Shown here piece after piece: positions 15,094 through 23,268 of a DNA stretch of 40,111 bases. The first letter of the stretch is position 1. Each line of letters begins with the position of its first letter. A program made the position numbers and the translations under genes. The notes beneath the pieces are model-generated. The model had not been told where the DNA came from. It saw only the letters and a program-made list of their open reading frames with translations, and searched no databases. Source of the DNA: Sulfurimonas sp. (GTDB lineage Bacteria > Campylobacterota > Campylobacteria > Campylobacterales > Sulfurimonadaceae); the NCBI GenBank assembly GCA_028689055.1, contig JAQTWZ010000004.1, positions 55,324 through 95,434 of the forward strand. Direction: 5' to 3'.

Positions 15094-16557
15094 CTAGATG
15101 ATAGTAACGCTAAATCCTTCGACAGAATCGAGTTTATTGACTGCTTCTTTACTCAAATAGAGTCTTTTTTCAGAATTTACAAAAAGTACTCCCTCTTCAA
15201 ATCGTAAATCAAAATCAATGTTTCGAGGACGATGACTTAGTAGTGCTATACTCAAAGAGAGCAGATAGCTAAGAAAATTCAGTGTATGCGTATCCGGAAG
15301 TAAAGACGCATATTTTTTGCTATGTGACTCATCTGGAAGTTTTTTCTTTGCGTATTTTGCGAGAGTAGAGATAAGGACTATTTGTTTGTGGGTAAAACCA
15401 TACTCTAACGCAGTTTGTATAAGATAGTAGCTATGTTTGTTTTTGGAATAAAAATGAACATTTCCTCCGGCAGGGTAGAGTTTTGCCGCAACTCCGAGTT
15501 CATAGCGATAGGATCCATCTACAGTAAAATACTCGGATGTGATATCAAAAAGTTTTTTACTCAGAGCGTTTAGTTGGTTGGAAAAGTTTGTATCCAAGAG
15601 ATGTGAGTCTAAAATGTATCTTACAGAGGTATTATAATTAACAGGAAGCTTATCTTTAGCGCCTCGTAAAAGATCTGCGAGATAAACACCTTCTCTTACG
15701 CCAACCCCACTCGTTAGAGCGGTTTTAGGCGCTATTTTGTGTAATACCCTCTCTAAGATAAGTGCTCCCGGTTTGATGACATCAAATCTATTACTTTGGA
15801 TACCAAGTTTTTTGAGTTCTGATTCATCCGCTTCAAGTATATTGGAGATAAATTTTTGAAGTTTTTTTACTGAATACTCATAAGCATGAAGTTTTTGCAG
15901 AGGATACGATTCTTGATTCATAATAGCACTTGAAATCGCTCGAAAGGTACCACCTATACCGATAAGTGTAGATGCATCTAATCCATTAAGGAGTTCAAGT
16001 TTTTTATCGATGTAGATGATAGCTTGATCAATCGCTCCCTTATCAAAAAAGAGCTCTTTTAGCCTTACTGTTCCTAGTTCCAAAGAGAGAGTATGACTAA
16101 CATTTTTTCGATTTATAATACTAAACTCCGTGGAACCGCCACCTATATCTATGCTGATTGCGTTTGTCTGTTCTGGAAGGAGGTTGGCACAGGCGATAGC
16201 ACCGTAATATGCCTCTTTTTCACCGTCAATTATTTTGATACCGAGTTTGAGTTCTTCTTTTACTTTTTGAAGAAAATCTTTTTTATTGGGAGCATCTCTG
16301 AGTGCTGATGTAGCGACACAGAAAACTTTTCTTGCGGAAAAAGAAGCACATATTGTTAAGAAATCAGCCAAAGCATCAAAAGTTCTCTGCATAGGAACTT
16401 CCTGAAGATAACCCCCATGCTCATAAGCATTTTCGGAGATTCTTACTTTGCTTTTAGCTTCGTGAAGGAGATGAAACGCAAAACGAGAAGTTCTCTCATA
16501 AACAACCATTCTAACTGAGTTAGAACCGATGTCTATAACTGCGACTCTTTTCGCCAA
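15094..16557 (-). CDS. Exopolyphosphatase / pppGpp phosphohydrolase (Ppx/GppA family)
   Basis: A 487-residue member of the ASKHA-fold Ppx/GppA family, which removes phosphate from polyphosphate or pppGpp. The N-terminal phosphate-1 motif is VAVIDIGSNSVRMVVYE (5-21), and phosphate-2 is SIDIGGGSTEFSII (about 135-148). The IGIGGTFRAIS block (about 203-213) is the adenosine-side motif. A helical HD-like C-terminal region (about 310-487) is as in long Ppx forms. It lies 4 bp after the ferredoxin gene on the same strand, the order (regulator, ferredoxin, phosphatase) I recall from Campylobacter jejuni near cosR. Which substrate is preferred cannot be read from sequence. Confidence 0.9.
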   Translation of the reverse strand: MAKRVAVIDIGSNSVRMVVYERTSRFAFHLLHEAKSKVRISENAYEHGGYLQEVPMQRTFDALADFLTICASFSARKVFCVATSALRDAPNKKDFLQKVKEELKLGIKIIDGEKEAYYGAIACANLLPEQTNAISIDIGGGSTEFSIINRKNVSHTLSLELGTVRLKELFFDKGAIDQAIIYIDKKLELLNGLDASTLIGIGGTFRAISSAIMNQESYPLQKLHAYEYSVKKLQKFISNILEADESELKKLGIQSNRFDVIKPGALILERVLHKIAPKTALTSGVGVREGVYLADLLRGAKDKLPVNYNTSVRYILDSHLLDTNFSNQLNALSKKLFDITSEYFTVDGSYRYELGVAAKLYPAGGNVHFYSKNKHSYYLIQTALEYGFTHKQIVLISTLAKYAKKKLPDESHSKKYASLLPDTHTLNFLSYLLSLSIALLSHRPRNIDFDLRFEEGVLFVNSEKRLYLSKEAVNKLDSVEGFSVTII

Positions 16558-18187: not shown

Positions 18188-18437
18188 AAACGCAGCCTTT
18201 GTTTAAAGTGAAGGATTATAGCATTATTTTGTTTTGTTGATTGTTTGGACGAAAGGCAAAGTTTTGCTGCCAAAGCTGCTAGCAAAGCAAGAAAGAATGA
18301 GTTCCTTCTTGCGTTTAAGATAGATAAAACACCTTGTAGTTCTCGAAAAACGTAGTTTTTCGTAGTTTTAGGGTGTTGTAGGGACTCCAGTCCCTACCAC
18401 TAAAACGGACGAGTTCGTTTTAGTGTGTAAATATCAG
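18188..18437 (-). other. Hairpin-rich intergenic region between regulator and kinase genes
   Basis: There is no gene in these 250 bp. At least four stems can be drawn: AAGAAAGAA against 18302-18310 (one mismatch); CGAAAAAC (18344-18351) with GTTTTTCG (18355-18362), enclosed by AACACC (18328) and GGTGTT (18372); GTAGGGACT (18378-18386) with AGTCCCTAC (18389-18397); CACTAAAACG (18398-18407) with CGTTTTAGTG (18416-18425). The last two abut and lie just after the regulator's stop in its direction of transcription. None is followed by a clean T run. Two AAACGCA repeats also lie here (18188 and 18310). It looks like a structured 3' UTR or a dispersed palindromic element. Confidence 0.7.
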
Positions 18438-20261: not shown

Positions 20262-21260
20262 TTGCAATACACAAACGAAGAATTAAAACAAAAAATCAAT
20301 GAATATAAAGCAAAATTGAGTGTTACGGTAGTAGCACATTTTTATCAAAGAGATGAAGTCTTTGAGATGGCAGATATCACGGGAGATTCGCTTGAACTTG
20401 CTATGCGAACTCGTGATGATGATGCAGAATTTGTAGTCTTCTGCGGCGTTGGTTTTATGGGACAAAGTGTCAAAGTTCTTTCTCCGCAAAAACGCGTAGT
20501 GATGCCAAAGATTGCCTGTTGTGCTATGGCTAGAATGATTGATTCACTCTACTTTGATGATTCGGTAAAATATCTTGAAAAAAATGGCATATCCAAAGAA
20601 AATATTTTGCCTATAACTTATATCAATTCAAACGCAGATGTTAAAGCCAAAGTAGGTGAGATGGGAGGCATGGTCTGTACAAGCTCAAACGCAAAACATA
20701 TTATAACTACGGCACTGAGTGAAGGTAAAAAAATACTTTTTGTTCCAGATAGATGTTTGGGGCAAAATATAGCCAATCAAATGGGTCTGAACTCTATGGT
20801 TATAGGGCAAGAGGGTGATCCAAAAGAGGCGGATATTATCTGCTACGACGGTTTTTGTTCGGTCCATCAGCTTTTTAGTGTGGGTGATATTGCGTTTTAC
20901 CGCAAAAAATATCCCGGTATCCTTATCGCGACACATCCTGAATGTGATCCTGCTATCTGTGATGCTTCTGATTTTGTAGGTTCGACTTCTCAACTTATTC
21001 GTTACATCAAAGAACTGCCAGAAGATCAAAAAGTGGCAGTCGGGACCGAGTTTAACATGGTAAACCGTTTACGTTCTAAAAATACTTATATACTCTCTTC
21101 TACAAAACCTGAATGCCCTACAATGAATGAGACAACTTTGGAAGATCTTTATCTCACACTCAAAGCGATTGATGAGGGTGCGCCGATAAACGAAATAGAT
21201 GTAGATGAAAAAACGCAAAAATGGGCAAAAATCGCTCTTGAGAGAATGTTGGCATTATGA
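20262..21260 (+). CDS. nadA: Quinolinate synthase
   Basis: A 332-residue enzyme that condenses iminoaspartate with dihydroxyacetone phosphate to quinolinate, using a [4Fe-4S] cluster. I chose TTG 20262 (AAAGAGG about 9 bp upstream), giving M-QYTNEELKQ. The much longer upstream frame overlaps plsY and the promoter and is rejected. The substrate block is VVAHFYQRDEV. Likely cluster ligands are in IACCAMARMID (Cys87), YDGFCSVHQLF and HPECDPAICD. The position usually Gly before the first ligand is Cys86. It overlaps nadC by 4 bp (ATGA). Confidence 0.94.
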   Translation: MQYTNEELKQKINEYKAKLSVTVVAHFYQRDEVFEMADITGDSLELAMRTRDDDAEFVVFCGVGFMGQSVKVLSPQKRVVMPKIACCAMARMIDSLYFDDSVKYLEKNGISKENILPITYINSNADVKAKVGEMGGMVCTSSNAKHIITTALSEGKKILFVPDRCLGQNIANQMGLNSMVIGQEGDPKEADIICYDGFCSVHQLFSVGDIAFYRKKYPGILIATHPECDPAICDASDFVGSTSQLIRYIKELPEDQKVAVGTEFNMVNRLRSKNTYILSSTKPECPTMNETTLEDLYLTLKAIDEGAPINEIDVDEKTQKWAKIALERMLAL

Positions 21261-22072
21261 TAGAAGCATTTGTAAAAGCAACTTTAGCTGAAGATGTCGG
21301 TCGTGGAGATTTGTATGCTTTGGTAGAGCCGAGTATTGATGCAAGTGCGAAGATTATCGCTAAAAGTGACGGCGTTTTGGCAGGTCGCAAATACATCGAT
21401 GTTTTAGCAAAAATGGAGAATTTTGAGATTGTGTGGGGAAAACATGATGGAGAGTTTTTTGTAAAAGGTGAGATTTTAGCTATCGTCCGTGCGGACTCAC
21501 ATACACTTTTACGTATAGAGAGAACTTTGCTAAATATGTTGCTCCATGCGAGTTCTATCGCGACTTTGACACAAAAGTATGTTGCCATTATCAAACCCTA
21601 CGGTGTCAAACTTTTGGATACGAGAAAAACACGACCTCTGCTTCGTGTTTTTGAAAAATATGCAACCCGTTGCGGTGGTGCTGTAAACCATAGAATGGGT
21701 CTTGATGATAGTCTGATGATAAAAGATACACATCTCAAAACCATAAAAGATTTGCCTCTATACATCAAAAAAGCAAGAACGCAGATACCTTTTACGGCAA
21801 AAATAGAGATAGAAGCCGAAACACTTGTTATTGCAAAAGAGGCGATGCAAGCAGGTGCGGATATTGTTATGTGTGACAATATGTCTCCCGCTCATGTAGC
21901 AGAAGTCGTTGCGTTTAGAGATGAAAACTTCAAACATATACTCCTTGAGGCAAGCGGAAATATCTCTTTAGAGACTATCGAATCGTATGCAAAATGCGGA
22001 GTTGATGCCATCAGCAGCGGTTCACTTATCCACCAGGCTAACTGGATAGACCTTTCCATGAAGGTCGATTGA
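21257..22072 (+). CDS. nadC: Nicotinate-nucleotide pyrophosphorylase (carboxylating)
   Basis: A 271-residue enzyme converting quinolinate plus PRPP to nicotinate mononucleotide, the step after NadA. The diagnostic block LLDTRKTRPLLRVFEKYA (about 117-134) is followed by GGAVNHRMGLDDSLMIKDTHL. Further on are IEIEAETLVIAKEA, VMCDNMSP and LEASGNISLETIESYA with SSGSLIHQ. Length and order are normal. The start overlaps the nadA stop, so the two are translated together. No nadB is next to them in this window. Its stop is 8 bp before the decoy copy of the flhB start. Confidence 0.95.
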   Translation: MIEAFVKATLAEDVGRGDLYALVEPSIDASAKIIAKSDGVLAGRKYIDVLAKMENFEIVWGKHDGEFFVKGEILAIVRADSHTLLRIERTLLNMLLHASSIATLTQKYVAIIKPYGVKLLDTRKTRPLLRVFEKYATRCGGAVNHRMGLDDSLMIKDTHLKTIKDLPLYIKKARTQIPFTAKIEIEAETLVIAKEAMQAGADIVMCDNMSPAHVAEVVAFRDENFKHILLEASGNISLETIESYAKCGVDAISSGSLIHQANWIDLSMKVD

Positions 22073-22080
22073 TACGCTAA

Positions 22081-22161
22081 ATGGCAGATGATTTAGAAAA
22101 GACAGAAGCTATTATTTTAAACGAAAAAAGAACAAGTACTTTTTTCTACGCTAAGCGCTAA
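22081..22161 (+). pseudogene. Decoy or remnant flhB start: 26-codon reading frame
   Basis: An ATG here opens a 26-codon frame whose first nine residues, MADDLEKTE, equal the FlhB N-terminus, after which it diverges (AIILNEKR) and stops at 22159. The DNA is identical to the real flhB start over 28 bp. No good ribosome binding site precedes it: AAGG is about 15 bp away, at the end of nadC. It may be a duplication relic or a leader peptide; I see no proof of translation. Confidence 0.6.
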
Positions 22162-22204
22162 GCTACTAAAGTAAAATCTTTGCCAAGATTTTAGTGGGTT
22201 CTTC

Positions 22205-22211
22205 AGGAGAG
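22205..22211 (+). promoter_or_regulatory. flhB ribosome binding site, inside hairpin loop
   Basis: AGGAGAG lies four bases before ATG 22216. It decides the flhB start over the identical ATG at 22081, which lacks such a site. It sits in the loop of the 22194-22250 stem. Confidence 0.75.
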
Positions 22212-22215
22212 ATGT

Positions 22216-23268
22216 ATGGCAGATGATTTAGAAAAGACAGAAGAACCCACCGACAAGAAGATAGAAGATGCTAGGAAGGAGGGAAATGTTCCCAAGTCTC
22301 AGGATGCTTCAGGAGTTGTTACTCTTTTTGTAGCTATTTTAGGACTTCTGATGCTTTTTCCTTTTATGGCAAAACATATGATTATCCTTTTTCAGTATTA
22401 TTTTTCTCTTATCGGTATGCATCTTGATAAGGTTTCTATGCTTGATATTGCTATTGTGACGATACGGGAGTTTTTACTTATCGTTATGCCCCTTTCTATC
22501 GCAGTGGCGGTTGCCGGTGTTATCGCCGCAGTCTCACAATTTGGGTTTTTGTTTACCACCAAAGCTATCATGCCTGATTTTAAAAAGATAGATCCTATCA
22601 AAGGAACAAAAAATCTTTTCTCATTGAAAAAATTGATTGAAGGGATGAAAGTCACCTTTAAATCCTTTACTACTTTGGGTGTTGGTTTTGTTTTTTTCTT
22701 TTATTTTATATTAGAGCTCCCGACTGTAGCGCTCTTTAGCCTTGCGGACCAAATGGAGTGGCTCAAAGATAAAAGTATCATCATCGCTTTTGTCATGTTG
22801 GTTATCATTTTTATTTTTGCCATCATTGACATTGTAATCGTACGAAAACAATATTTTGATGGGCTAAAGATGAGTAAACAAGAGATAAAAGATGAGATGA
22901 AAAATATGGAGGGAGATCCTCTAGTCAAATCTAAAATTCGTCAAATTCAGATGCAAGCTTCAAGAAAAAGGATGATGGCGCAAGTCCCTACCGCAGATGT
23001 CGTTATCACAAATCCGACGCATTATGCAGTTGCCATCAAGTATGATGAAGAGAAGTTTAGAGCACCTGTTGTAGTCGCAAAAGGTGTCGATAATATTGCC
23101 ACACAAATCAAAAAGATAGCCAGAGAGAACAATGTACATATTGTCCAAAATCCACCTTTAGCACGTAGTTTATATGCGGAGGTAGATTTGGATAAGGCGA
23201 TTCCTCAGACACTTTTTGCCGCTGTAGCGGAAGTTTTGGCCTATGTATATAAGATGAATAGAAAATAA
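22216..23268 (+). CDS. flhB: Flagellar export apparatus protein FlhB
   Basis: A 350-residue inner-membrane protein of the flagellar type III export gate, which switches substrate specificity. The N-terminal EEPTDKKIEDARKEGNVPKS is the FlhB/YscU signature. Four membrane segments lie at about 34-62, 76-110, 148-176 and 187-209. The cytoplasmic domain carries the autocleavage motif NPTH (266-269), followed by YAVAIKYDEEKFRAPVVVAKG. It is complete and intact despite the rearranged 5' end. It is far from most flagellar genes, though flhF starts at the other end of this window. Confidence 0.96.
   Translation: MADDLEKTEEPTDKKIEDARKEGNVPKSQDASGVVTLFVAILGLLMLFPFMAKHMIILFQYYFSLIGMHLDKVSMLDIAIVTIREFLLIVMPLSIAVAVAGVIAAVSQFGFLFTTKAIMPDFKKIDPIKGTKNLFSLKKLIEGMKVTFKSFTTLGVGFVFFFYFILELPTVALFSLADQMEWLKDKSIIIAFVMLVIIFIFAIIDIVIVRKQYFDGLKMSKQEIKDEMKNMEGDPLVKSKIRQIQMQASRKRMMAQVPTADVVITNPTHYAVAIKYDEEKFRAPVVVAKGVDNIATQIKKIARENNVHIVQNPPLARSLYAEVDLDKAIPQTLFAAVAEVLAYVYKMNRK

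Follow-up and report, generated by a model that had tools for sequence, protein, structure and literature searches.

The stretch of DNA analysed here, hereafter the window, comprises 40,111 nt of a Sulfurimonas sp. whose source genome was labelled G000. In it nadC is followed on the same strand by flhB, and the leader of flhB consists of a duplicated gene start enclosing an insert. The following features were located (SD, Shine-Dalgarno sequence; H1 to H3, hairpins; R2, the covariance model introduced below):

21257–22072, + strand: nadC, 5' neighbour of flhB (Pfam PF01729/PF02749)
22073–22080, + strand: native nadC–flhB spacer TACGCTAA; also found (TATACGCTAG) before flhB in G122, a relative that lacks the element
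22081–22108, + strand: upstream copy U (old start) of the first 28 nt of flhB, an exact repeat of 22216–22243; its place and flank follow from the comparison with G122
22081–22161, + strand: upstream frame of 26 codons, MADDLEKTEAIILNEKRTSTFFYAKR; stop TAA 54 nt 5' of flhB
22109–22215, + strand: 107-bp insert, a three-hairpin repeat element plus new SD; R2 match at 22117–22203 (54.2 bits, E 1.5e-10)
22123–22146, + strand: H1, GAAAAAAG/CTTTTTTC; RNAalifold consensus, compensatory changes and fold
22154–22164, + strand: H2, AGC/GCT, in the conserved core, then ACTAAAG; G-C/A-U and C-G/G-C swaps among flhB leaders
22172–22193, + strand: H3, TAAAATCTT/AAGATTTTA, a 9-bp stem (arms 22172–22180/22185–22193); consensus structure and fold
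22194–22204, + strand: GTGGGTTCTTC, 5' arm of the start-enclosing stem, exact complement of 22240–22250; complementarity conserved in 35 leaders
22205–22209, + strand: SD of flhB, AGGAG, borne by the insert; relatives have UAGGAG in the same place
22216–22243, + strand: downstream copy D of the flhB start, now joined to the gene; exact repeat of 22081–22108
22216–23268, + strand: flhB, 350 aa (Pfam PF01312, E 2.8e-120)
22240–22250, + strand: GAAGAACCCAC, 3' arm of the start-enclosing stem, flhB codons 9–12; contains the insertion point GAAG|AACCCAC
18233–18318, − strand: second copy of the repeat family in the window (R2 31.1 bits, E 3.2e-5); orthologous copies in G139 and G122

U and D match each other in all 28 nt, are spaced 135 nt from start to start and enclose 107 bp; a perfect repeat of 28 bp with such spacing is no chance match. 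The original prediction, made from the sequence of this stretch, had described the duplication and the insert with exact coordinates, and the 9-bp stem of H3 and an upstream ATG opening its own 26-codon frame were likewise present as described, while two hairpins of the insert, H1 and H2, had been overlooked. It also recognised GTGGGTTCTTC as the exact reverse complement of GAAGAACCCAC 36 nt further on, AGGAGAG and the ATG being looped out between the two, but took it for the end of the insert, whereas a further 11 nt (AGGAGAGATGT) follow. In the minimum-energy fold the stem of H3 and the start-enclosing stem appear exactly as described (−30.6 kcal/mol, z −1.8). No promoter or terminator above chance was found in the 107-bp insert. 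The short stretch TACGCTAA was considered as a remnant of the element and rejected, because the element-free G122 carries the same spacer.

The sequence inserted at flhB is a divergent member of a repeat family that lies between genes, in multiple copies, in the Campylobacterota. Other copies of the insert, for which a search had been suggested, were found with a first covariance model built from nine flhB inserts, up to 47 per genome away from flhB. The covariance model R2, which comprises 63 copies, none of them at flhB, matched the window insert with 54.2 bits and an E value of 1.5e-10 in the window and of 8.3e-9 in the whole genome, H1, H2 and H3 following in order and with covariation. 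Members of the family are elements of about 86 nt (86–107 nt) with three hairpins, which lie between genes in both orientations and share a core between H1 and H3, CTACGCTAGCCGCTNNGGCACTAAAGC, that is nearly invariant. In the window the core reads CTACGCTAAGCGCTAAGCTACTAAAGT, the linker and ACTAAAG being kept, the arms of H2 swapped with compensation and the last C changed. In the R2 alignment every one of the 11 pairs of H1 and of the 6 pairs of H3 has changes on both sides. The whole structure stands far above shuffled and slid controls, two-sided changes being counted in 223 cells versus 84 after shuffling (score 0.377 vs 0.138).

Within Sulfurimonas, sampled in the broad GTDB sense, the family was multicopy and present in 93 of 120 genomes, and in the order Campylobacterales 61 of 249 genomes and 18 of the 73 genera sampled gave a match. 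At least 119 stretches matched the exact core pattern; among the matches listed all were Campylobacterota by title, namely Sulfurimonas, Sulfuricurvum, Sulfurospirillum and Helicobacteraceae MAGs. Viral contigs yielded two exact core matches only, and no copies of the family were found on plasmids. For the repeat no Rfam family rose above the gathering threshold and no matching family was found in the literature searched, in which this family, and likewise REP/ERIC-kind repeats of Campylobacterota, seem to be undescribed. Open reading frames (ORFs) are largely spared, 150 of 159 copies lying outside them as against 57 of 318 control positions in the same count. Between co-directional genes lay 118 of 144 copies, the element running along the genes in 50 and opposite to them in 68; that no strand is fixed argues for the family as a whole being DNA of the REP/ERIC kind and not a single strand-specific RNA. 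Some sites are common over long distances, such as narG–narH, a gap that holds the element in G000, Sulfurospirillum sp. SCADC and a Helicobacteraceae MAG (L093, L203, L207) and is either an old or a recurrent site.

Several copies depart from the common layout. An extra hairpin, AATGAAGG..CCTTCATT, stands about 20 nt before H1 in many of them (L079, L083, L094, L164, L199, L206, L243, L263, L284) and is possibly a fourth module. In two unrelated copies, L084 and L067 (the latter from the flhB leader of G069), an identical small hairpin, GGAGAATGCCATTGGTTAGCATTCC, interrupts the ACTAAAG linker, as though this were an insertion site of another element. Next to the second copy in the window stands a stretch of about 115 nt (approx. 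18322–18436, − strand) with three more hairpins (e.g., GTAGGGACTGGAGTCCCTAC), which G139 and G122 lack at this site. On contig C20 of G000 (16343–16519) two tandem elements precede a HIT-type gene, where G139 has one copy and a remnant, indicating a recent change in copy number.

The closest kinds of known repeat are ERIC and other small repeats on the one hand (PMC2229807) and REPINs on the other (PMC3116915). ERIC/IRU of enterobacteria are counted among the MITE-like small repeats together with Correia/NEMIS, RUP and RPE (PMC2229807). Like ERIC/IRU, the present family is about 100 bp long, intergenic and multicopy, its transcript folds into stem-loops, either orientation is met with between co-directional genes, one frame is open, and it can occupy untranslated leaders. 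Unlike ERIC and MITE-like repeats, it possesses three separate hairpins and no terminal inverted repeats joining the ends (none links the two ends of the insert, and no inverted pair of at least 12 nt was found, the consensus being three local hairpins), belongs to a different phylum and leaves the sequence of H1 and H3 free while pairing is kept; nor was a short TA-type target duplication seen. Where the flanking sequence, here called X, is duplicated, it measures 24–36 bp; a general flanking repeat was not found, repeats of 28, 36 and 24 bp appearing in three cases and none clearly at a site on contig C40 of G000. With REP/REPIN and their RAYT transposases (PMC3116915) the family shares the nature of extragenic palindromic repeats in large numbers, and its reverse strand reads GTAG and then H1, but its three hairpins are separate instead of a REP doublet forming an inverted pair in one hairpin, and no linkage to a RAYT/Y1 transposase was found at the loci checked. 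As defining features of REPINs and of MITEs are lacking, we file the family as REP/ERIC-like in behaviour and as a member of neither. Hairpins near both ends also recall IS200/IS605 and their non-autonomous derivatives; elements of the IS200/IS605 type are not known to duplicate their target, and no linkage of the family to a transposase was found in the scans for Y1_Tnp.

Two candidate movers were examined and rejected. The RAYT/Y1 transposase (Y1_Tnp) was only weakly tied to copy number (Mann-Whitney p 0.026), several high-copy genomes do without it, and the nine Y1_Tnp loci checked held no copies of the element. The reverse transcriptase RVT_1 occurs in 25 of 120 genomes (p 0.05) and is absent from the high-copy genomes G061, G025, G036 and G092. 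The family thereby combines unusually strong covariation with no known mover.

Of about 106 readable flhB leaders, 27 carry the full element together with the duplicated flhB start, which is about a quarter of the Sulfurimonas-type genomes. In every one of these it is the species' own flhB start (approximately the first 28 nt) that is copied before the element, with the gene after it, and the junction is the same in 27 of 27: an AT-rich spacer and then H1 follow ...GAAG(A), at about codon 9. The copies are 135–142 nt apart in the 27 leaders; G121 possesses an extra tandem unit, with 140 nt per unit, and in G069 an extra hairpin insert raises the distance to 174 nt. A single leader (G131) bears the full element without duplication, eight contain remnants, chiefly H3 and the SD, likewise without duplication, and the remainder contain neither. 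Clean pairs of filled and empty sites exist between sisters (G011/G116, G024/G084, G093/G115 and window/G122), and since the native spacer directly precedes U in such pairs, it is U that occupies the original position, the addition being the element and the second copy. The flhB site offers a natural experiment, as dozens of related species present one insertion in states that range from full and tandem through eroded and collapsed to empty. That a short element insertion had rebuilt the flhB leader was rightly predicted, the insert belonging to a multicopy family and sister species having the empty site. A leader conserved in relatives had been named as evidence against an insertion. This applies in part, for the leader turns up at one and the same junction in species throughout the genus, whereas sisters lack it.

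Two further origins were weighed against these data. As G000 is a draft of 82 contigs, an assembly artefact might be suspected, but with the same layout in the single- or two-contig genomes G009, G011, G077 and G090 we give it practically no credence. A single replication template switch in the G000 lineage would account for the duplication and the inverted 11-mer at once, since such switches typically leave one direct and one inverted copy of a single short target, and would make the family resemblance incidental. This is very improbable in view of the same junction, element type and duplication in 26 other leaders and of the independent covariance-model match; the original prediction, where it allowed for a one-off switch in G000, was wrong because the arrangement is shared with relatives. 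In an ancestor, a template switch could still have been the origin.

The unit is subject to turnover. Collapsed forms are found in G062, G123 and G139, and the pairs G140/G062 and G025/G123 are read as collapse because the relative retains remnants of the element. At variable sites U and D agree in 0.95 of cases within a genome and in 0.56 between genomes, and the element-derived 36 nt before each start, in genomes with two such stretches, have an identity of 0.93 within versus 0.73 between genomes. The likeness of these element-derived stretches is beyond what a target duplication could produce; recombination between the repeats accordingly homogenises, expands and deletes the unit. The history we propose begins with a member of a three-hairpin multicopy family (step 1), which lies at one fixed junction after about codon 9, with the old start and the native spacer upstream and the gene joined to a second start (step 2). 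Recombination between the direct repeats multiplies the unit (G121) or collapses it (G062, G123) and holds the copies alike in each genome, and the empty site returns exactly when one unit is lost (step 3). Jointly, family membership, the fixed flhB junction with its direct repeat of about 28 nt and unit turnover are held with high confidence; family membership and tandem turnover of the flhB unit are well supported, and turnover taken singly is shown in part. Two different flhB starts, with and without the element, occur on contigs C10 and C66 of G026 (L010, L040), a bin with 8% contamination which probably unites two organisms.

How often the flhB site was entered is a question on which the evidence is divided. 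One origin is favoured by the common junction, by a local agreement in which the nearest element neighbour was among the three nearest flhB neighbours for 13 of 25 elements, as against 3.3 after shuffling, and by the flhB elements forming a sequence type of their own, unlike the other copies in each genome. Against it speak a scattered occurrence on the tree and the distances, those of element and flhB showing no overall correlation (Mantel r −0.004 for protein, 0.09 for DNA). The elements of G001 and G025 are 91% identical at a DNA distance of 0.32 for flhB and 0.29 for nadC, so vertical descent alone is insufficient. On the tree, the duplicated state requires about 22 changes versus 23.5 with shuffled labels, at least eight of them forced. 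Step 4, which appears moderately probable, would be a single entry in an ancestor common to some members of the genus, followed by numerous losses and a measure of lateral exchange.

Its serious rival is repeated independent insertion of a mobile element that would recognise the flhB start through its 3' end, which carries the reverse complement of GAAGAACCCAC, and would duplicate about 24–36 bp of target each time; the start copies would then match the host because each event copied it. Patchy presence and clean empty sites in sisters speak for such insertions, as do start copies and an inverted 11-mer that track the host sequence and the close likeness of the G001 and G025 elements in distant hosts. 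In two unrelated copies, moreover, the element lies at a gene end between repeats of the last 36 nt (L250) or 24 nt (L280) of the preceding gene, stop codon included, so that the layout X-element-X is not confined to flhB. However, when 159 copies were checked for flanking repeats, long ones were found in only a few, most of those being tandem arrays, and the presence/absence site on contig C40 of G000, compared with G139 and G122, has no clear long duplication. Nor do the flhB elements resemble the other copies of their genomes, unit turnover alone can make copies alike, and no mobiliser was found in the scans for Y1_Tnp and RVT_1. The unusually long target duplication of the original prediction fits the layout at flhB and the two unrelated copies, but most copies of the family lack a long flanking repeat, and a tandem duplication with later loss is a conceivable alternative. 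We favour an early entry that was frequently lost and to some extent exchanged laterally, and regard repeated insertion as unlikely. A fuller version of repeated gain, in which a mobile hairpin element would insert at gene boundaries again and again with a variable target duplication of 24–36 bp, would find flhB by the complementarity of its own 3' end, and would be tolerated thanks to the returned start copy and the new SD while remaining exactly reversible by recombination, seems distinctly improbable.

By the favoured history the insertion would have rebuilt the start of a flagellar export-gate gene, and two questions become directly testable: how small repeats with long flanking duplications spread, and whether an insertion of this sort alters the translation of its host gene. 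In the last step proposed (step 5), which is the weaker one and advanced tentatively from sequence comparison, the element would have supplied a new SD, and a stem UUCUUC/GAAGAA of up to 11 bp would loop out SD and AUG. This start-enclosing stem has on average 8.8 of 11 pairs in 35 genomes, compared with 3.3 for random 11-mers of the leader, and pairing falls once leaders are exchanged at random between genomes (p 0.004, without correction for phylogeny). In 26 of 35 leaders the variable third position of the Pro codon faces a base with which it makes a standard pair. Energy models predict a strong stem in about half of the duplicated leaders and a weak one in about half of the species, and the UUCUUC/GAAGAA pairing rests partly on flhB sequence constrained by the protein. 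The upstream copy was also considered as partner of the 5' arm and discarded, its pairing being negligible in most species.

In 19 of 27 leaders the frame opened by the old start stops between −10 and +1 of the flhB start (12 at −9, three at −10, one at 0 and three at +1), a feature also of translationally coupled leader ORFs, which terminate at the SD or start codon of the main gene. A ribosome that terminates there would open the stem, as in known cases of translational coupling, and by analogy a ribosome opening the stem could couple flhB translation to the leader frame in most carriers among the relatives. Unlike known leader ORFs, the frame opens with a copy of the first nine codons of flhB. 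Two of the three forward frames of the element are stop-free by composition, hence the open upstream frame is a weak, suggestive sign of coupling, and its openness was rejected as proof of selection.

Alternatively, the hairpins, the SD/AUG stem and the leader frame might be maintained as a cis-regulatory leader under selection for useful translation control of the export gate. Compensatory changes at 9 of 19 pairs within flhB leaders alone, the conserved UUCUUC-UAGGAG with its complementarity to codons 9–12, the frame ends on SD or AUG in 19 of 27 and the persistence of a 28-bp direct repeat that should be deleted easily would all suit this reading. It is nevertheless doubtful, as the leader is missing from about two thirds of leaders, nearest sisters included, eroded and collapsed forms are common, and the full-length leader frame is lost in the window; moreover, a structure that recurs on either strand in hundreds of copies beside unrelated genes is not readable as flhB-specific. 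The explanation preferred as a whole, a family element at a fixed junction with turnover, ancestral entry and a rebuilt leader, is probably correct. Under it, control of the FlhB level by the insert, as originally predicted, is possible; the start-enclosing stem is conserved in its general form. In the window itself the upstream frame ends 54 nt 5' of flhB without overlapping SD or start, and the otherwise conserved UAGGAG reads CAGGAG; the stop after 26 codons and this change make coupling in G000 unlikely, and since the leader frame is cut short, the flhB of this genome probably depends only on its new SD.
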